This document shows positions 48,779-61,843 of a DNA stretch of 64,000 nucleotides, one piece after another. The stretch comes from Methylocapsa acidiphila B2. Its GTDB lineage: Bacteria; Pseudomonadota; Alphaproteobacteria; Rhizobiales; Beijerinckiaceae. The position numbers and the translations under genes are program-made. The notes beneath the pieces were generated by a model, which had not been told where the DNA came from, did not search any database, and worked only from the letters and a program-made list of their open reading frames with translations. The stretch's first letter is position 1. Every line of letters starts with the position of its first letter. The stretch is taken from the NCBI RefSeq assembly GCF_000427445.1, contig NZ_KE386496.1, positions 1,663,585-1,727,584 on the forward strand, written 5' to 3'.

Positions 48779-49330
48779 TTACGATGCCGGCGGATCGAAT
48801 GTCGCGTAATGAATCGCGATTCTCACCACGCCCGCCGTGAACGCGCCGCCAATCGCGATGATACTGATTGCCGAGGGGAAGTACCACACTGTTGGGCCGA
48901 TTAGCCCTGAGTTGGTCACTCCAGTCGAAGTCCCAATAGCGGAGCCAAATCGACCGTTCACAGACCCGAGTTCTCCTCCGGGCCCCGTCGTCGCATCGAC
49001 ATTAAATGAATTGGCGCCGGAAATGGACGTCAATACTCGTACTGAAACCGAAAAAACAAGGGATCGGCTTGGGATCTCCATGACTGACGAGCTCAACGCG
49101 CCTGAGCAGGTGACGGCTTCTTCGACGACCCAAAACTGAATGCCAGCCCCGTGAGGCGTGCGGCTGCATGGCACCTCACTCAACTTAGCGGCTGCAAAGC
49201 CGCCTGCTGTCACGCCATCTTGAACTAAAACCCGATTATTTGTTGTATCGACAAGAAGCTCTCCCGCCGCTCCGACATAGCCCGCAAGGAAGCCTGCGGC
49301 CTCCCGCCTACGTTTGACTTGAATGCTCAT
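48779..49330 (-). CDS. Tail fibre-type protein with adhesin-like N-terminal domain
   Basis: 183 aa. The opening VKRRREAAGFLAGYVGAAGELLVDTTNNRVLVQDGVTAGG is the common RRGT..GAAGE..VDTT...V.V.DG.T.GG attachment domain of phage fibres. The rest is beta-rich (AIGTSTGVTNSGLIGPTVW). It ends with a hydrophobic strand and a short tail. It overlaps the hub gene stop by 4 bp (ATGA), consistent with coupled translation of hub and fibre. Confidence 0.65.
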   Translation of the reverse strand: MSIQVKRRREAAGFLAGYVGAAGELLVDTTNNRVLVQDGVTAGGFAAAKLSEVPCSRTPHGAGIQFWVVEEAVTCSGALSSSVMEIPSRSLVFSVSVRVLTSISGANSFNVDATTGPGGELGSVNGRFGSAIGTSTGVTNSGLIGPTVWYFPSAISIIAIGGAFTAGVVRIAIHYATFDPPAS

Positions 49331-51483
49331 GCAGACGCTAACCCCAAATCGATTACGATGCTATATGGATCGGACGCCCGCCCCCAATCGTCAACAGAGT
49401 TGTCTGCGAGGCTTGCGAGCCCAAAATCCAGACTAGATCCTGAAATAAGGGCCGCGGTGACTTCGCCAATCATTCCCGCGCCCGTCGGCGTGTAACTATA
49501 GGTTGCACAATCGGCTAGATCCTGAATGCCTTGCCCAAATATGTTGACGCTTTGAAATTTGAAATAGAGCTTAATCCCGATATAGTTATTCATCAAATTA
49601 TACTTAAAAATTGCGTTATCCAATCTAGCGAATGGCGCGCCACCGAGATGCTCCGACGGCGACGATCCAAAAAGCCCACGCTGAAGACCGGTAAGGCTGT
49701 ATGTGTTGGCGCTAGTCAACACTGCATTTGCATACGCAATGAACTCAGTGTCTATAATGGATAGAGTCGCGCCATTGCGTGCGTCTAGGTCTGTCGACGG
49801 CGCCAACATTCCTCCGCTCTCGAGAAGTGAAACCGAAAGCACATCAGCGTTGTCTAGACCGCCGATGGCGGGCAATCTATTGATAAGATTGCCTTGGCGT
49901 GCAGGCCCATGGGTCGTTGCACCAATTAAACTATAGCTTGTATCATCCAATGAAACATAGATGTTCGCGCCACCCCAATTTGGGTCAACGCGCCCATTCG
50001 TTCCTCCCGAAAGCGCAACCCAAATCTGAGCGATGCCCCCCGTCAATGCTGCGGGCGGTTCGAGGATCAATGGAATGTTTACAGCAGCAGGAACAATAGA
50101 ACTATTGTAAGCAACGCCTTGACCACTTTGAACGGAATAAATAGAAGCGGTTGCGGCCCCAAGCTCAAAATCCTCCGCGCTCACGGCGAGTACGCCGATG
50201 TCATCTTCCTCGACTGCGGTAATCCGAACCGGATAGCAATCCAAGCCGAGCGCGGGATCGGTCAGCGAAACGATGTCCATAGGCTCCAGCAGGCAATATT
50301 CAAATGTTAATTTGAATTGATAAGTGTTCCGTACAGCAAGACCGCGCTGCAGCATTAATTGAACAGCAATCTGACCGACCTCCGGATCGCAAATCTCATG
50401 GGCGGTAATGCTGGATCCTTTCCGCAGGCCGAATGTTTCAATTGAATTTTGGTCCCAAGCCTCAATCGGTAAAGGGCTATACTGCGCTTCTCTCTCCGCT
50501 ATTTCCAACGCCAGCCAATTTTTCGCTGTAAATGGATCCGAGCGCGACACCTGCACGGGATCATTTTCTCCCGTGGCGACAAAGTCATCGTCGGTTAAGT
50601 TGTAAATTGGCGATATCTGTGGAGTATAAGTTGAAAGCTTTCCGGTTTGGAGTTGCCTTGTAATTTGCAAGTCGCCATAGGGAATAAATTTCAATTCTCC
50701 GCCCGACCATACTACAGCGGCATTTGTAAGCAACAACCATCGCGCAAGTATGCTGTTGGCAGTCTCTTGATTAACTAACGTCGGGGAAAGCGCGAGACCG
50801 GCTGCTCGACAATAGGTCTGATAGGATGCATCTCCTGACGCGCCCAATAGAGTCGATGCATTTATGCTTTCTGGTGGAAAGCCGACGCCATATTGTGAAT
50901 TCGTCAGGAAGTCCTGCACAATAAGTGCTGGATCCGCATCCAAGCCGTTTACGACTGCAGAAGTAGATGGGAAGGATAGCACGCCACGTATTTCGAAATT
51001 TTCGGACGGCAGATTTGCACTCGAACCCAAATAAAATGCTGCTGAACATACATATGCTAGACCACCATAAGCGATTGTTTGGTCGGGAAACTGCGTTGAA
51101 AGAACCGACCAATACGGTTGTGGCGTGGAGCCGCTGAAGAATGTCCAACCTGCGGACGCCAATGTCGTGGAACTCGACCCGGACCAAATTGTTCCAATTC
51201 CTGCAATCGGACCTTCGCACAGACCTAGAATAGCTGAAACATAGTAGCTGTAACCCGATACCGTCTGCTTATTTGACGACCCGCCCTTCCCGCCTGAACC
51301 GGTGTTCGCCGAATATTGCGGCACGCCAAAAAAGCCGCCTTGCCATATTAAATTATAGCCACTCTTATTCGTTCCATAGACAATTGGAATTGGAACTCCG
51401 GCCGTTGCCGACTGTATCTGCAGTCCAGAATATTCATAGACCCATGCTTGTTTAGCAGCATTCGCCGAGCGCAAGAAACTCAT
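49327..51483 (-). CDS. Tail tip / baseplate hub protein (gpJ-like, Phage-tail_3 type)
   Basis: 718 aa. The opening has the tail-hub text VPIPIVYGTNKSGYNLIWQGGFFG, SYYVSAILGLCEGPIAGI, AYVCSAAFYLGSSANLP (usually AYVA...L). Next come NSILARWLLLTNAAVVWSGGELKFIPYGD, a fibronectin-like region, and EPMDIVSLTDPALGLDCYPVRITAVEEDD, which is conserved in gpJ/RcGTA g15-type hubs. Unlike RcGTA g15, no TIM-barrel domain precedes it; that domain is in the gene at 54670. ATG 51483 follows the peptidase stop with no gap. Confidence 0.8.
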   Translation of the reverse strand: MSFLRSANAAKQAWVYEYSGLQIQSATAGVPIPIVYGTNKSGYNLIWQGGFFGVPQYSANTGSGGKGGSSNKQTVSGYSYYVSAILGLCEGPIAGIGTIWSGSSSTTLASAGWTFFSGSTPQPYWSVLSTQFPDQTIAYGGLAYVCSAAFYLGSSANLPSENFEIRGVLSFPSTSAVVNGLDADPALIVQDFLTNSQYGVGFPPESINASTLLGASGDASYQTYCRAAGLALSPTLVNQETANSILARWLLLTNAAVVWSGGELKFIPYGDLQITRQLQTGKLSTYTPQISPIYNLTDDDFVATGENDPVQVSRSDPFTAKNWLALEIAEREAQYSPLPIEAWDQNSIETFGLRKGSSITAHEICDPEVGQIAVQLMLQRGLAVRNTYQFKLTFEYCLLEPMDIVSLTDPALGLDCYPVRITAVEEDDIGVLAVSAEDFELGAATASIYSVQSGQGVAYNSSIVPAAVNIPLILEPPAALTGGIAQIWVALSGGTNGRVDPNWGGANIYVSLDDTSYSLIGATTHGPARQGNLINRLPAIGGLDNADVLSVSLLESGGMLAPSTDLDARNGATLSIIDTEFIAYANAVLTSANTYSLTGLQRGLFGSSPSEHLGGAPFARLDNAIFKYNLMNNYIGIKLYFKFQSVNIFGQGIQDLADCATYSYTPTGAGMIGEVTAALISGSSLDFGLASLADNSVDDWGRASDPYSIVIDLGLASA

Positions 51484-51484
51484 T

Positions 51485-51931
51485 TTAATTATCTTCTTTT
51501 CGCACAACGCTAAAGAAGCGCACGCGGCGTTTGGAGTTACTCAGATCGGGATGAGTCCAGACAGGATCCTCGACAACAACGCGAGACGGCTGAAAAGCAT
51601 GAATAATTGTCAATGGTTCCACATTCGAAACGATTCCGCCGTGTGAGTAGCACCTTCCCCAACGAAATACGCATATGTCACCTGACTCGGGTCGGGGGAC
51701 TTCAGTGGCCCGCTCGTCGACGAAGCCTAGATATCTTTCGTCAGATCGATGCAAGTGCCAGTCGGCACTGTACGGCCTGGGATCAAATTGCGCCGTCAGT
51801 CCAAGGTCGACGTAGACGCGGACGAGGAGCATCCCACAATCAACCCCGACGCCCCGCACATCGGCGCAATTATGATATGGGGTTCCAATCCACTTCCGAG
51901 CCTCTCGTACGATAACTGATCTAGTATCCAT
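51485..51931 (-). CDS. NlpC/P60 family phage cell-wall peptidase
   Basis: 148 aa. The catalytic triad fits: C32 in GVDCGMLL, H97 in YSHGGIV and H111 in IIHAF. It is of the RcGTA g14 / phage tail peptidase type, acting on peptidoglycan during DNA injection. It sits between DUF2163 and the hub, the same order as in RcGTA g13-g14-g15. Start ATG 51931. Confidence 0.85.
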   Translation of the reverse strand: MDTRSVIVREARKWIGTPYHNCADVRGVGVDCGMLLVRVYVDLGLTAQFDPRPYSADWHLHRSDERYLGFVDERATEVPRPESGDICVFRWGRCYSHGGIVSNVEPLTIIHAFQPSRVVVEDPVWTHPDLSNSKRRVRFFSVVRKEDN

Positions 51932-51945
51932 GGCTAACTCGATAA

Positions 51946-52812
51946 TTACAGGTCATATGTCGGTGGCGGTATGAATGGAAAGCCACGAAAATTGATCTGG
52001 TTATTGAATTTGGTCCGGCACGTAGATAGCGTGTGATCACATCCTTGATAGACTGTAAACGCGTCTCCGACAGTAGGTTGGTGCGGTAGCTTATTGCTTA
52101 GCGTCAAAGAGCCAGCTACCGCTGCCTTGATGTTCGCCGTCGCACCTATATTTGGACCGGAAGTGAACGCAATCGTTCCTTGGGCGTATTCTGCCGCGGC
52201 AGCCGACCAATTGATTATCGTCGGCGTAGAGCCAGCACCGACCTGACCCATAGCGCCAAAGGCACTTTTAATGAGCGTGCAGCCAGAATCATAAAGCTTA
52301 TGTTGACAACTTGGCGAATATATGTTGCGCGGCATCTCGATGTCGAGGAGCACTAAATCCGAGTTCACGGTCAATTGTGCCGTTGTACGCCCAACGTTAT
52401 CCACCGCTCCGACCCGTCCTTTAAATAGGACAACGCTACCTATCGGTGGTTCAGTCCACGTTTTCAGAAACGCTCTCTCCCGCTGGATTAGCGCGCCGTC
52501 AAAAATCCCGTTGCGGACAGCTTGCATAAACGGGATGCCGCCCAGGGTGTCAACGGTCCTTGCAGAAATCGTAATTTGCTGTTGATCCACCTCAAGCCCG
52601 ACGCTGCTCTTCAATCTCAAGCCGTCAATGAGGATTGAATTCGCTTGATATATTGCGCCATTTAGCGCAATTGACACATCGGCGTTTGTAACGGTCAGTA
52701 TTAGTCCGTTTTGAAGCGTCAAAGTAAAGCAGTCGCCGACAAGTGCAGTTATATCACAATTCGAACGTAGTACGCCGAGAAATTCGACTAGATCTGGCGA
52801 CGCGCTTCTCAT
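51946..52812 (-). CDS. DUF2163 / phage BR0599-family tail protein
   Basis: 288 aa. The N-terminal domain (SASPDLVEFLGVL, then CDITALVGDCFTLTLQNG) and the C-terminal BR0599 domain (SPSCQHKLYDSGCTLIKSAF, GCDHTLSTCRTKFNNQINFRGFPFIPPP) carry the paired cysteines typical of RcGTA g13 and related tail proteins. It overlaps the DUF2460 stop by 4 bp (ATGA). Confidence 0.85.
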   Translation of the reverse strand: MRSASPDLVEFLGVLRSNCDITALVGDCFTLTLQNGLILTVTNADVSIALNGAIYQANSILIDGLRLKSSVGLEVDQQQITISARTVDTLGGIPFMQAVRNGIFDGALIQRERAFLKTWTEPPIGSVVLFKGRVGAVDNVGRTTAQLTVNSDLVLLDIEMPRNIYSPSCQHKLYDSGCTLIKSAFGAMGQVGAGSTPTIINWSAAAAEYAQGTIAFTSGPNIGATANIKAAVAGSLTLSNKLPHQPTVGDAFTVYQGCDHTLSTCRTKFNNQINFRGFPFIPPPTYDL

Positions 52813-53441: not shown

Positions 53442-53620
53442 TCAAGCACCGCCGGCGCGGCATTTGAGCAATCCCCGATCGCGCAGCGACTCGCAACAAA
53501 CGCATCACCGTAGTCGCTCTTATCGACGTAAGAATATTGCCCGAAGGCACTCAAGATTACCGCGATAGATTCCTTAACCACGGAGCCTTCCTTGTGCGTG
53601 AGAGACTTATAGATCCACAA
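53438..53620 (-). CDS. Small open frame upstream of DUF2460
   Basis: 60 codons from TTG 53620, or 46 from an in-frame GTG preceded by GAAGGCTCC. Product ends SNAAPAVLD and overlaps the DUF2460 start (TTGA). It could be a coupling leader peptide or the broken C-terminal end of a protein interrupted by the adjacent IS. No family recognised. Confidence 0.3.
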   Translation of the reverse strand: MWIYKSLTHKEGSVVKESIAVILSAFGQYSYVDKSDYGDAFVASRCAIGDCSNAAPAVLD

Positions 53621-53829
53621 CCTGTAATATCAATCCAGTGTGCCGAATGTCTCGTACAAGTGTAGCTGAATACGTTCAAATAGGCGCCGTTAAAAAGGCC
53701 TCATTCAGTAGGTTATCCTTCGCCCGGAGCACGACGGGACGTCGCCCGAACTCAACGCACGATTTGAACCGCCGATTTCAAAGGCGACATAATTTCGGGC
53801 GTAACCGATCCATTCCGTCTAGGTCCTGT

Positions 53830-54562
53830 TGACCAATGGCTCCATAGCCGGATCTCGATAATTTGGAAGAAACCAAGATAATTGGCTGGGGCTTTGGCAT
53901 ATCGGATCGCCCGGCTACGCGCGTTCTTGTCCTTGTGAAGCAGCGTTCGATGTCGTTGCGCGAGGTATAGTCCTAGCCAGCGACCTAGATTTGGCTTTGC
54001 GCTTCCTGCGCGTAACGACGGTCGCGGCGCCCTTGTCCTCTAGCGTTTCGCGAATACGATCGGAATTATTGCAGCCATCTGCGATTGATATTTGGCTACG
54101 GCCCGACCGCGTCCCTCAAAGGGTCAAAGCGCGAATAATCCAAGCCCTAGCCTGCAATGATCTCTGCGGCTAACAGCAGTCCTCGCCGTTCCTAGGGAGG
54201 TGACTCTTAGGCGTGAAGTCGCCTCTCAAGCGCCCAAGACCTGACGCGAGGTCCCTTTAGCGCCTACGGCGCAGTGATGCACCCGGACGATGGCGCCATG
54301 ATCGTCTGGACTCTCTCGCCGACGCCTTCAGTCTCGTTCAGAGGCTCAAGCAGAAGGTCCCGCAATCCGCGGATCATCCAGCGTCGGAACTGTCGATAGG
54401 ACGACGACCACTTGCTAAAATGTTCATGCCGGCCGAGATGGTGCAGGCGATCCAGACAATCCCATCCGGAAAAGGGCGATGATCTTTAGGGCGTCGCCCG
54501 CAGTGTATGCCGCGAACCGTCACGAAGGACTCAAAATTGGCCCATTCCTCATCTGACATCAA
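53830..54562 (-). pseudogene. Decayed IS5-family transposase
   Basis: Read on the minus strand the DNA gives, in different frames, the pieces of an IS5-group transposase in the right order. They are MSDEEWANFESFVTVRG, GRRPKDHRPFPDGIVWIA, KWSSSYRQFRRW, IVRVHHCAVGAKGT, NDIERCF, and KNARSRAIRYAKAPANYLGFF. Several frameshifts and in-frame stops separate them (for example between RRW and IVRVHH), and part of the centre is missing. Its ends and terminal inverted repeats were not found. It lies between the GTA_TIM fusion and the DUF2460 gene. Confidence 0.85.
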
Positions 54563-54669
54563 TCCTCGAACCAGGGCCGCTGCCCGCCGAAACGGATATC
54601 AAATCAGAAACTTGTCCTAATGGGACTCCTTTCTGTCAATAAAGCCTAGGCTCGGCAAGCCATGTAATC

Positions 54670-56955
54670 CTACTCGCCCTTCACGCTGCGAAATTTAATT
54701 GCGCCGAGTGCTACGAGGCGTTCCATGAATTCTTCGTAGCTTTCGCCCTCATCATCCAAGCGACATGTCAGCATCGTTATGCCGTCATGCTCGATTGGCG
54801 CCGGAAATAGAAACGGACGATGTCGACCAAAATGCATCGCGACGAAACCGATGACTTCTTGCAGCTCAGCGTAAGGCGGGTCCATTCGTAATAGATCAAA
54901 GCCGATTTCGATGTTAAATATGGGCGTCGACATACGACTAAGAAGACACTGCCTTCCGGACGCATGTCTTGTTATAGCGGATGAAAATTGCGGTTGATAG
55001 CGCACGCACCAGCCGCGCCCAACGAAAGTAGGAAATTGAAAGTACGATCCAAGCTCCGGAGGCGGATCAGGGATTGGCATCTCTGTTGGTGGCGACTTTC
55101 CAGTGAGCCAACTTCCGCCTGACCAATTGCTCCCGTCCGCCCACACATCAGATCTGACGGGAAAGATCGGAAAAGGCCGAGCGTCCCAATTCCAAACCGA
55201 ACAAAATTCGGGCTGGATCATATGGATGCTATCTACGACGGGATTATTGCTCGGCACATCGGTGAACCAATATTCGTGGAAGGCCTGGAGCGCCAAGCTT
55301 TGAAGAACTAAATCAGTTCGCGGCAAATAGCCAGCCCCATCCGCGGAATCCCAGATAGACCAATAAGCGGTGGCGCTCTCCGATGATTTTGCATCGAAAA
55401 AGGCATTGGGCTGATTTGTCGATCGGTCTGTACTCGCGAAACCGTATTCTGTGAACGCTACGGATTTCATATGGGCAAACCAAGCAGTTGTCTGGCCTTT
55501 CGGGCTTTCTCCGGCGCCGTCACCGCTATCATAGAGCGCTCTATGAGAATTGCTCCACCACCACCGAACTTGCTTTTGGGCCAGTATCTCCTGATTTGGA
55601 TAATAGCGATTTCGCGCCTGCGTCAGACGATCTCCGTCGACGCACGAAACACGAAGATCAGTTCCAAATGGATCAAGACCAACTCCCTTGTTGCGCGAGT
55701 TGACATAGAACCAATTAAACCGCTCGCCACCCTCAATATTTGCTTTCAGATATTCCTTCGAGTAGAGCGTGGGAGCGCCAGTAAGGCCGAGTCCGATCGA
55801 AAGGGGATCGGCCGGAGGCCAAATTATCGGCGCGGAATCACACCAAAGTCTCGCATCGAGACCGCCAGAACCCGTCGTCCAATCCGACATCGGTAGATAA
55901 TTGTCAAAACAAACGAGATCGATATTCGGACTAGACCAAAGCGAATCTAGATGTGGCCACAATCCAACCGACGAAGCTGGGTTCGACAACGAATGGTCAC
56001 ATCCCATCCAAGTCGACCAATCAGCTGCGTAGCTGATGAGGTTGTGTAGTCCAGCTACGTTCTTCGTCAGACCCGCCTCGTCAAAAATTCCTCTGACGTC
56101 GTCGGACAATTGCGATAGGCCGCCAACGAACGGATAATCCCATGCCGCATGACTGTTCTCATCGACCGTCCCGGCAGCGCTCCATCCTGGGCCTCGAATC
56201 GTCTCGAGCCCGCGGAGTTCGGAACCGAGAAGAAATAGGTCAACGCCACCTGCAATGACGCACAGATTTGCGTAATGCAAAATCATACGCCTATATGTAT
56301 AATTAGAAGGCGGTCCAGAATATCCGACCGTTAAATTCATTGTGTCGCGACTAAACTCTGATGGCGACGCCATCCCCAGAAATTTGGCGACGGCTGAGGC
56401 AGCAGACTCCGAGATATCAGGGCCGCTATAGGCAATCCTTCCACGCCAAGGCAACCCCTGGCAGGTCATCAATATGAACGGATAGAAGACGATCCGAAGG
56501 CCCCGCGATCTCAGTGCCCGAATACAGCGTACGATCGATTGGTCCGAAGGCGTTCCACCGTAGATAAACGATTCTCCATTCATTGGAAGCGGAATTATTT
56601 CCTGCGATAGTTGCGTCAGTTCAGAACATCGCCATACGTCACCGACCCAGTCGTTCCCGCTCCACTTCTCAAATCCACCGCCTATATATGTCGTTGACGG
56701 AAAAATCTTGCAATTCTCTACATCGGTCGAATTTCCAAACCACGACACTACAATGGCAACGGTGATACAGCTAGGGAACGCGGCTTGAAGCTGATCAAGC
56801 GCAAGTTCGATATCGCCTCTATCCGGCCCTTCGCCGCCATAAGCATTGATCAACTCGAAGGCCGATGCATTCGCTCGATGGCCTCGGTAACAGATAGTGT
56901 CATAGGTGAACTCTCCAGTCGACGGGAGCAGATTCACGCCATTGACAAACTCCAT
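54670..56955 (-). CDS. GTA TIM-barrel domain protein fused to a C-terminal DUF2460-like domain
   Basis: 761 aa. The main part is the glycoside-hydrolase-like TIM barrel of gene transfer agents and related phages: RRMILHYANLCVIAGGVDLFLLGSELRGLE, DNYLPMSDWTTGSGG, KSVAFTEYGFASTD, WNWDARPFPIFP. From about residue 640 a second domain follows: FVGRGWCVRYQPQFSSAITRHASGRQ, then a closing GAIKFRSVKGE. It matches the DUF2460 protein at 52809-53441 (GQGWSITKRPTFSTRVASHVSGRE, ending SVKFRSVRP) but lacks the DPSDH..GDG middle of that family. In RcGTA the barrel is the N-terminal half of the hub (g15). Confidence 0.82.
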   Translation of the reverse strand: MEFVNGVNLLPSTGEFTYDTICYRGHRANASAFELINAYGGEGPDRGDIELALDQLQAAFPSCITVAIVVSWFGNSTDVENCKIFPSTTYIGGGFEKWSGNDWVGDVWRCSELTQLSQEIIPLPMNGESFIYGGTPSDQSIVRCIRALRSRGLRIVFYPFILMTCQGLPWRGRIAYSGPDISESAASAVAKFLGMASPSEFSRDTMNLTVGYSGPPSNYTYRRMILHYANLCVIAGGVDLFLLGSELRGLETIRGPGWSAAGTVDENSHAAWDYPFVGGLSQLSDDVRGIFDEAGLTKNVAGLHNLISYAADWSTWMGCDHSLSNPASSVGLWPHLDSLWSSPNIDLVCFDNYLPMSDWTTGSGGLDARLWCDSAPIIWPPADPLSIGLGLTGAPTLYSKEYLKANIEGGERFNWFYVNSRNKGVGLDPFGTDLRVSCVDGDRLTQARNRYYPNQEILAQKQVRWWWSNSHRALYDSGDGAGESPKGQTTAWFAHMKSVAFTEYGFASTDRSTNQPNAFFDAKSSESATAYWSIWDSADGAGYLPRTDLVLQSLALQAFHEYWFTDVPSNNPVVDSIHMIQPEFCSVWNWDARPFPIFPVRSDVWADGSNWSGGSWLTGKSPPTEMPIPDPPPELGSYFQFPTFVGRGWCVRYQPQFSSAITRHASGRQCLLSRMSTPIFNIEIGFDLLRMDPPYAELQEVIGFVAMHFGRHRPFLFPAPIEHDGITMLTCRLDDEGESYEEFMERLVALGAIKFRSVKGE

Positions 56956-59005: not shown

Positions 59006-59743
59006 TTAGGACGCCTCGCCGAAGGACCAAGTCATGACGTTACCAGCCGCATCGGCAAAGCAGGAAAAATCGAATTCCGGCATGACAAAGTCCTCGAGCT
59101 TCGTCTGGAAACTCAGCTTAGTCGACGTGCAATTATTAAGTTGCAACGAAATTGCCTGCCCCTGATAAGACGTATAAAAAACCGCCTGAAAGGTCGGAGT
59201 CGTACCCAATAGCTGGTTTGCCACGCTGACCTTCGTCCCCGAATTGCCGACCGTGTAAAGATAGCTCGTAAAGACCGTCTTTCCCGCATCGCCGGAACTA
59301 AATGTATAGACACCTGAAACGACCGAATATTGACCTACTGACGGCGTCGACGCAACCTTCACCAGTGGCAAGCCTGTCGCCGCATAAACGACACCTTCAT
59401 CGCCGACAAACGACCCGGAATTAGCTACAGTATTTGTGTATGGACTTGTTGACCCGACAGCCCCAACTTCAGCAAATGACGTCGCCACTTGGCCAGCGAC
59501 CGGATTAACGCCATAAAATAAATTTGCGAAGGCTAAGCCGGAGATGCGCGCCAGTTTAGCCTTTCCTGTTGTCTTAATCGTCCCGCGAGCAGCAGCTATC
59601 GGTCTCTGATACTGGCCATATAGCTCTTTGATCGTCGCAGTTTCCTCAATTGTTACCTCTTGAACCGATCCAAAATTAATTGGCGTCCCATTCAATATGT
59701 CATTACGAGTCCCAAGCAATACGCCGGAACCAAAACTATACAT
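59006..59743 (-). CDS. Major tail (tube) protein
   Basis: 245 aa. The N-terminal text (FGSGVLLGTRNDILNGTPINFGSVQEVTIEETATIKELYGQ) and the C-terminal domain (LSFQTKLEDFVMPEFDFSCFADAAGNVMTWSFGE) fit tube proteins of this phage type. Residues about 115-170 are an inserted beta domain (VVYAATGLPLVKVASTPSVG, then YTFSSGDAG) that also occurs in the head-tail connector at 61007-61843. Confidence 0.8.
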   Translation of the reverse strand: MYSFGSGVLLGTRNDILNGTPINFGSVQEVTIEETATIKELYGQYQRPIAAARGTIKTTGKAKLARISGLAFANLFYGVNPVAGQVATSFAEVGAVGSTSPYTNTVANSGSFVGDEGVVYAATGLPLVKVASTPSVGQYSVVSGVYTFSSGDAGKTVFTSYLYTVGNSGTKVSVANQLLGTTPTFQAVFYTSYQGQAISLQLNNCTSTKLSFQTKLEDFVMPEFDFSCFADAAGNVMTWSFGEAS

Positions 59744-61006: not shown

Positions 61007-61843
61007 TCAAGGGGTCACAATTCTTCGATAGGGGACCAGAGCGCTTCGAACAAAATCCGGTATATCCTTAACAATAAACGCTATCGTTTCTTGTCCGCCG
61101 AGAGACTTCGATTGTTGCCCGATGCGCGAGCGATATGTATATCGCTCTGCGGCCCAATCCATACAACAAGCAGCAAGTTCAGCCGGCATATATCCGTAGG
61201 ATATTTGCATCTCGACGCCAGCATCAGCCTGCGAAAATGTATATGTTCCGTCCGCTACAGAATATTGCCCACCTAAAGGATTCGAAGCGACACGCGTGAG
61301 TTGCGTACCGTCGATATAACTTACGCCGCAATCACTGCGCCAGTCGCCCAACGGCGCTGCTGCAGCAACACAAAATGGAGCGGACTTCGGTCCGGTCACA
61401 TTTTCGTCAGTGATTTGATATCCCGCGGTATAGGAAATCATCACATTCTGAATGCCGCAGACGAAGCGTCCATTTCGAAGCGACAAGCGCTGCATACCTC
61501 CAGGCGGCCAACTCCCGGCAGGATCTATAATATACCCAACACTTTCACTCCATATTCCCGCGTTTTGGACGAAAGAGGGAATGAGTACGTCATTGATCCT
61601 GCATGCTATGATTCCGAGAACAGGCCACTCGCGAAGTGTGACCGACCTCTCGCCGCCGCCATCAAATACATCTTCAAATGGCATTGGAAGAATGGATGAA
61701 CGGTTGATGTATGCAAGAATAGCGCGACTAATTTGACTTATTAGATGACCAAGGAACACATCGTCGTCGTCCCCAGCGATATCCAAACATCCCTTCAAAT
61801 CTCCTAGACTCGCAAAGTCAAACGGAGAAGGCATTTTATTCAT
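61007..61843 (-). CDS. Head-tail connector/adaptor protein (gp6-like) with inserted beta domain
   Basis: 278 aa. The N-terminal helices (LGDLKGCLDIAGDDDDVFLGHLISQISRAILAYINRS) and the C-terminal pair (LAACCMDWAAERYTYRSRIG, IPDFVRSALVPYRRIVTP) are those of connector proteins. Between them are WPVLGIIACRIND and a further beta region containing YIDGTQLTRVASNPLGGQYS and YTFSQADAG, a domain shared with the tail tube. Start ATG 61843. Confidence 0.75.
   Translation of the reverse strand: MNKMPSPFDFASLGDLKGCLDIAGDDDDVFLGHLISQISRAILAYINRSSILPMPFEDVFDGGGERSVTLREWPVLGIIACRINDVLIPSFVQNAGIWSESVGYIIDPAGSWPPGGMQRLSLRNGRFVCGIQNVMISYTAGYQITDENVTGPKSAPFCVAAAAPLGDWRSDCGVSYIDGTQLTRVASNPLGGQYSVADGTYTFSQADAGVEMQISYGYMPAELAACCMDWAAERYTYRSRIGQQSKSLGGQETIAFIVKDIPDFVRSALVPYRRIVTP

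Follow-up and report, generated by a model that had tools for sequence, protein, structure and literature searches.

A TIM barrel fused to a second DUF2460 domain in the tail-tip genes of a prophage family represented in Methylocapsa acidiphila B2

Gene content of the tail-tip region

The window, by which we mean the whole 64,000-nucleotide stretch of the Methylocapsa acidiphila B2 genome that was analyzed, carries an element of about 25 kb, with purM/purN on one side and glcF-like genes on the other. Its tail-tip genes are transcribed in the order tape measure protein, TIM barrel-DUF2460 fusion, DUF2460 protein, gp13-like protein, gp14-like protein, and a hub protein without the TIM barrel (Table 1). 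A sequence-only reading of this DNA had already given the fusion, the additional DUF2460, the TIM-less hub, and the gene order, all of which are correct according to the Pfam and phrog profiles; its coordinates for the fusion gene were right as well, and we add that the strand is minus.

Table 1 Features of the tail-tip region, with positions counted from the first letter of the window
Feature	Coordinates	Strand	Basis
TIM barrel-DUF2460 fusion gene, 761 aa	54670..56955	minus	Pfam GTA_TIM and DUF2460; layout repeated in relatives
TIM-barrel part of the fusion, residues 1-620	55096..56955	minus	phrog_4271 match at 3-620
Low-confidence linker, residues ~621-639	55039..55095	minus	pLDDT <50 at 619-635
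Short DUF2460 (Dit-core-like) domain, residues 640-761	54673..55038	minus	~78 profile positions absent mid-domain
Tape measure protein, 418 aa	56959..58215	minus	phrog_2854, E 5.2e-10; no Pfam match
Decayed IS5-family transposase between both DUF2460 genes	53442..54669	minus	Broken reading frames
Full-length DUF2460, predicted main distal tail protein (Dit), 210 aa	52809..53441	minus	Pfam, E 9.2e-38
gp13-like baseplate hub protein	51946..52812	minus	TIGR02218, 107.8 bits, above cutoff of 80.5
gp14-like NlpC/P60 peptidase	51485..51931	minus	TIGR02219, 53.4 bits, below cutoff of 81.9
Megatron-like central protein (hub) without TIM barrel	49327..51507	minus	PF13550, E 1.1e-34; Rcc01698_C, E 7.1e-14; phrog_1101, E 6.4e-87

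GTA_TIM (PF13547) matches residues 219 to 599 of the fusion (E 5.5e-92; 308.7 bits, over the curated cutoff of 27), while a Pfam scan of the hub gave no GTA_TIM match. The DUF2460 match of the fusion covers residues 640 to 720 (E 1.5e-4) and, at 21.8 bits, stays below the curated cutoff of 30.4. As had been read from the translations, both DUF2460 proteins end almost identically, with ...KFRSVKGE in the fused copy and ...KFRSVRP in the separate one. The separate protein has weak sequence matches to known Dits (R4C, E 0.018; RcGTA, E 0.064).

The two DUF2460 genes had been taken as adjacent, but they are not contiguous in the window, as an IS5-family remnant of 1,228 bp separates them. Its best IS5 transposase match covers 31% of the stretch at 66.7% identity, and a search for terminal inverted repeats around it found none. 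The fusion and the separate DUF2460 gene overlap in 48 of the 87 loci where the distance was measured (the window copy among them), and none of the gaps is longer than that of the window. Gaps of more than 700 bp occur in 5 of these 87 loci and hold the IS5 remnant (window, 53442-54669), a HigB-like toxin with an HTH region (L155, 7528-8157), an addiction-module pair (L080, 1881-2506), an ADP-ribosyltransferase-like gene (L204, 11291-11992), and a stretch of which one frame was scanned and gave no Pfam match (L207, 11260-11940). The junction may be a cargo spot. Elsewhere in the element, a domain of about 65 residues is common to a head-tail adaptor-like protein (61007-61843) and a 245-aa tail protein (59006-59743). 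A capsid gene frameshift that we had suspected was an effect of the window edge, the gene coding for 505 aa in the genome.

The fused DUF2460 domain and its spread

Scans with a single protein returned solely the window's own prophage from viral contigs and nothing from genome contigs, and finding relatives took an alignment as the query. From two such scans, 160 loci were obtained, the best 80 of 255 relatives in one and the best 80 of at least 567 in the other. TIM and DUF2460 lie in one frame in 104 of these 160 best-scoring loci, a share that is overstated, as the set consists of top hits, counts the window's own copy (as L129), and has some records in duplicate. By our own thresholds (HMM bits and C-terminal length), the fused loci comprise 41 of type A, with a short DUF2460 as in the window (one of them, L188, is cut by a contig end, its length not known), 58 of type B, with a full-length domain, and 5 of type C. 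Type C, made up of five viral loci with two near-copies among them, has its barrel on the main Dit, and a second DUF2460 was not found there. In the other 99 fused loci, the separate DUF2460 was found in 96, and the remaining three lie at contig ends. The nonfused loci are 44 megatrons, all from genome contigs, and 12 (9 genome, 3 viral) that are frameshifted, cut by a contig end, or of type D and were counted as not fused. Named hosts of the fusion include Methylocella tundrae, Methylobacterium, Beijerinckia, Rhodoblastus, Roseiarcus, and Methylocapsa.

A sample of 119 genomes of the host family provides the fairer count. A GTA_TIM match is present in 98 of them and an intact fusion in at least 13, the window's own included, which is a lower bound since loci were chosen by frame length and match span. 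The 13 are G000 (as L001), G010, G017, G023, and nine more genomes with ten loci, some of which share their records with loci from one of the alignment-based scans; the separate DUF2460 is present at all 10 of these additionally read loci. Within the same sample the fusion is frameshifted in G013 and the barrel sits on another protein in G008, and an eleventh locus chosen for its similar frame length, in G098, has no DUF2460 fusion. No INPHARED phage record with the fusion was seen among the matches listed (60 of 62 judged), all of which end by query residue 621. The window, put forward at first as an oddity, is therefore not exceptional, the fusion being common among its relatives. The arrangement had been noted as unfamiliar among described GTAs, and in the open-access literature searched we likewise found no description of a TIM barrel-DUF2460 fusion; what turned up on a distal tail protein together with a TIM barrel concerns Rhodobacter phages with megatrons. 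This tail-tip architecture is real and widespread, apparently undescribed, and ordinary within its phage family, a large one whose hosts are bacteria of soil and plants.

The setting of the cluster bears on whether it belongs to a prophage family or is a GTA kept vertically by the host genus. Its terL is 78 to 82% identical in seven of eight relatives and the portal is conserved in seven of eight, but the window's flanking host genes that were tried do not recur in the flanks of these relatives (~19.5 kb on each side), apart from a hisA homologue found near the cluster in the window genome and in G017, at opposite ends. The fusion is also carried by IMG/VR contigs of 57 to 68 kb. Although the small size of the element, the lack of an integrase among the genes scanned (part of the element), a host with no other GTA_TIM gene, and the hisA homologue would suit a vertically kept GTA, we regard that origin as very improbable, and the idea of a GTA at a conserved host site was rejected on the unshared flanks, hisA in G017 excepted. 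The description that suits the element best is that of a prophage, possibly one in decay. The host genome (G000) has one GTA_TIM match in all, and a standard megatron GTA was not seen in it.

Sequence comparison indicates that the homology of the window's short C-terminal domain to DUF2460 is beyond chance, because the separate DUF2460, as phmmer query, recovers the fused protein of the window's own prophage (L001; full-sequence E 9e-10) and those of L033 to L038 (6e-17 to 9e-21, in a small database of fetched frames), and because the fused domain passes the Pfam cutoff in both type A/B relatives scanned (L033, 38.8 bits; L051, 104.6 bits). L173 and L183, scanned alongside, are of type C and do not bear on the fused domain of types A and B. 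The second DUF2460 proposed from the letters thus holds, with the window copy itself below the threshold. Modeled alone, the domain has a pLDDT of 79.5. Its Foldseek matches in the PDB are led by the lambda tail tip (E 0.022), followed by the T1 tail tip and RcGTA, all of them weak (E >0.001); the top ten are all phage-tail, GTA, or contractile-injection entries, with the R4C Dit 15th and T5 23rd, and TM-scores by query length are 0.26 to 0.48 in the first seven.

The fused DUF2460 of type B extends about 215 residues beyond the barrel, whereas that of type A lacks profile positions ~93 to 170. Residues 97 to 187 of the separate DUF2460 align weakly with positions 96 to 187 of the RcGTA Dit (E 0.064), and the RcGTA and R4C Dits consist, in the available sections of their structural reports, of a tube-like core and an insertion domain (PMC7296036, PMC10276861). 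From this alignment and this build, the part lost in the type A anchor would most likely be the outward-facing insertion domain. An extra middle stretch of roughly 150 to 310 residues occurs in some DUF2460 domains (L183, 8992-12465; L180, 230-3313; L044, 52-1152).

The anchor domain is under purifying selection in the relatives, with dN/dS of 0.095 to 0.394 in the 11 computable pairs of 14; both pairs with the window copy are saturated. The window copy may be decaying, given its DUF2460 score below the cutoff, a branch among the longest (1.0 in the larger quick tree described below and 0.94 in the 70-domain tree), the saturated dN/dS, and the IS5 remnant between the genes. These same features, a short and fast-evolving domain next to an IS5 remnant, could be read as a nonfunctional leftover of the duplication, without which the barrel works. 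We give little credence to this reading, since type B keeps the domain at full length and under constraint, and since type C, which lacks this copy, has its barrel attached to the Dit that remains.

Three unrooted trees address the history of the two halves: a careful one of 70 DUF2460 domains, and a larger DUF2460 tree and a barrel tree that were both quick and carry SH-aLRT support only. Eight loci that repeat another record (nine were named, one absent from the set) and then near-copies were left out, reducing 102 loci to 93. In the 70-domain tree, the fused domains form a clade (100/98), the separate ones another (96/91), and both together a single clade (99/83), outside which fall five Dits from phages that have no TIM. 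The value of 99/83 for a single duplication may be too high, because the KT1 and XAJ2 Dits sit on long branches that drew a long-branch warning and the GTA outgroup does not fall on one side of a branch. The larger tree, which excludes domains longer than 260 residues or without a clear match and kept 3 of the 5 type C, 78 separate, and 35 GTA domains, agrees with supports of 88 and 83. These sister clades point to a Dit that was duplicated, one copy then being joined to a barrel and shortened in the branch that leads to the window. Of the type C domains, the three that were kept nest inside the separate clade, so type C seems to have lost the first copy and to have its barrel on the main Dit. 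The short form needs three changes in the larger DUF2460 tree and nine in the barrel tree, and since these trees disagree, the two halves of the fusion may recombine.

The barrel and the barrel-free hub

The model of the fusion has a mean pLDDT of 84.6, and its best PDB match in Foldseek is the R4C megatron (E 8e-25), followed by GH113 mannanases (E 2e-6 to 2e-4). GH113 also gives a partial Pfam match in the window protein and in several members of the family, but identity to the mannanases is only about 9 to 13%, and the activity of the phage barrel is putative. Two acids are conserved: E246 in 92 of 93 fused barrels (with one gap) and E503 in 93 of 93. In the model, E246 directly follows the strand at 240 to 245, and E503 is within the strand at 499 to 504. 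Enzymes of clan GH-A have conserved acids at strands 4 and 7, and in the model E246 and E503 are placed as in a GH-A/GH113-like enzyme, with a strand numbering that is our own assignment. Both acids have their equivalents in 53 of 53 megatron barrels, for which reason the fused and megatron barrels may both bind or cleave glycans of a similar kind. The peripheral domain of the R4C megatron is likewise predicted to be mannanase-like in the available part of its report (PMC10276861), and what exactly the TIM barrel of the RcGTA megatron does has remained unknown according to a preprint of 2026 (PMC13420450). A further context of the barrel is seen in the Paracoccus phage ParMal1, annotated as Autographiviridae (L238, 3118-5772), where GTA_TIM lies at residues 564 to 857 of an 884-aa product encoded one gene away from an internal virion protein.

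The fused barrels and the 53 megatron barrels form two groups in the barrel tree (support of 100, with 50 of the 93 fused barrels used plus one from Methylocella silvestris). This last barrel, from a prophage of M. silvestris TVC (L040, 7245-9815), is fused to a Dit of a family other than DUF2460, phrog_1302, "distal tail protein" (E 2.5e-21), and falls inside the fusion family in the quick tree (88); its gene comes after the hub rather than before it, and the hub is lambda-J-like.

Ten phage records cover at least 80% of the window hub at 36 to 43% identity, with single-piece alignments over ~90%; they belong to Brevundimonas, Acinetobacter, and Pseudomonas phages, several being near-copies of one phage. 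No barrel lies inside the aligned stretch of these ten best matches, Pfam found no GTA_TIM in the two phage hubs scanned, and none of the organism names of the TIM-bearing phage records is among the hub's 13 phage matches. In four annotated regions of such phages, a profile search found the tape measure protein, a single DUF2460, gp13, gp14, and the hub in the same order as in the window, with other genes between them, and no TIM in the region. The hub and DUF2460 of the window have homologues in the Brevundimonas phages Polewnik and Strzyga and in the Acinetobacter and Pseudomonas phages, and gp13 and gp14 do so in the four regions searched, which differ from the window in having one DUF2460 and no barrel. 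The DUF2460 of Polewnik has another domain attached at its N terminus, an ALK/LTK glycine-rich domain in place of the barrel. Polewnik's DUF2460 protein is also matched by phrog_8234, as is the head-tail adaptor-like protein of the window (61007-61843).

Hence, going by these alignments, the window hub need never have held a barrel. The sequence-only reading had the module gain a second DUF2460 and move the barrel out of a megatron-type hub into the DUF2460 gene. The gain accords with the sister clades. For the move speak the homology of the fusion barrel to the megatron peripheral domain (414.2 bits to the megatron model NF048004, and phrog_4271) and the match of the hub to other parts of the same model (143.6 bits), each of these scores being below the cutoff of 800 bits that is set for a single protein. 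The barrel-free, single-piece hub relatives and the four phages with the same gene order and no TIM make it quite unlikely in our judgment. A barrel gain is better supported than a relocation from the hub, on the grounds that the nearest hubs are without a barrel and that the barrels fall into two separate groups.

A predicted enzyme carrier at the tail tip

We consider that the fusion is probably a carrier of an enzyme at the tail tip, with a GH113-like barrel on a Dit-like anchor derived from a duplicated Dit. In the ancestor of the prophage family, the Dit gene (DUF2460) would have been duplicated, the upstream copy gaining the N-terminal GH113-like TIM barrel while the downstream copy stayed an ordinary Dit. 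The duplicated core would anchor the barrel in or beside the tail-tip ring, so that barrels would be displayed around the tip from the Dit side and not from a trimeric megatron as in RcGTA, and the barrel would bind or cut a surface polysaccharide as the phage adsorbs. The anchor of the window's branch would have lost its middle, most likely the outward-facing insertion domain, and such a loss fits a domain kept for anchoring. Assembly of the fusion into the virion, its copy number, its enzyme activity, and its substrate are what we infer from this reading, as is a ring formed by the fused domain. The natural variants retain a barrel on a Dit, both in type C and in M. silvestris TVC with phrog_1302. 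More tentatively, there could be an additional Dit-derived ring that solely holds six mannanase-like barrels around the tail tip, with the barrel itself passing as a portable host-surface cassette among unrelated Dit families and hubs.

The number of barrels would be three if fused and separate DUF2460 subunits alternated, three of each, in one ring, which would match the threefold baseplate. Odd and even Dit subunits of RcGTA do differ in conformation to meet the threefold hub, according to the section available (PMC7296036), and both window copies keep the C-terminal KFRSV. In type C, however, the barrel sits on the sole DUF2460, and six barrels should fit there; we hold the alternating ring to be rather unlikely.

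The gene set and the order from tape measure to hub are like those of the RcGTA and R4C baseplate (g12 Dit, g13 hub, g14 peptidase, g15 megatron), whose barrel, Dit, hub protein, and peptidase are homologous to those of the window. The difference from RcGTA that had been pointed out is real: RcGTA and R4C have one Dit and hold the barrel within the megatron, as its peripheral domain (residues 230 to 744 in RcGTA, per the accessible part of PMC7296036), whereas the window has it on a second copy of the Dit, next to a hub that lacks it. In the accounts available to us, the evolved Dits of lactococcal and other Gram-positive phages resemble the fusion in bearing extra carbohydrate-binding modules on a Dit. 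Evolved Dits carry binding modules on the usual Dit of the tail. Type C, with its module on the tail's own Dit, fits this type, but the window family has a GH113-like barrel on a duplicated Dit, the second copy being the one that carries it in the window. The arrangement is a variant, and a new one, of both the GTA-type baseplate and evolved Dits. As a separate protein anchored through a Dit-like domain, the barrel could be expressed, tested for activity, and removed by deletion while the hub stays intact. For the phage family, the case looks like a Dit duplication that yielded a carrier subunit, of which full-length, shortened, and single-Dit forms still exist.
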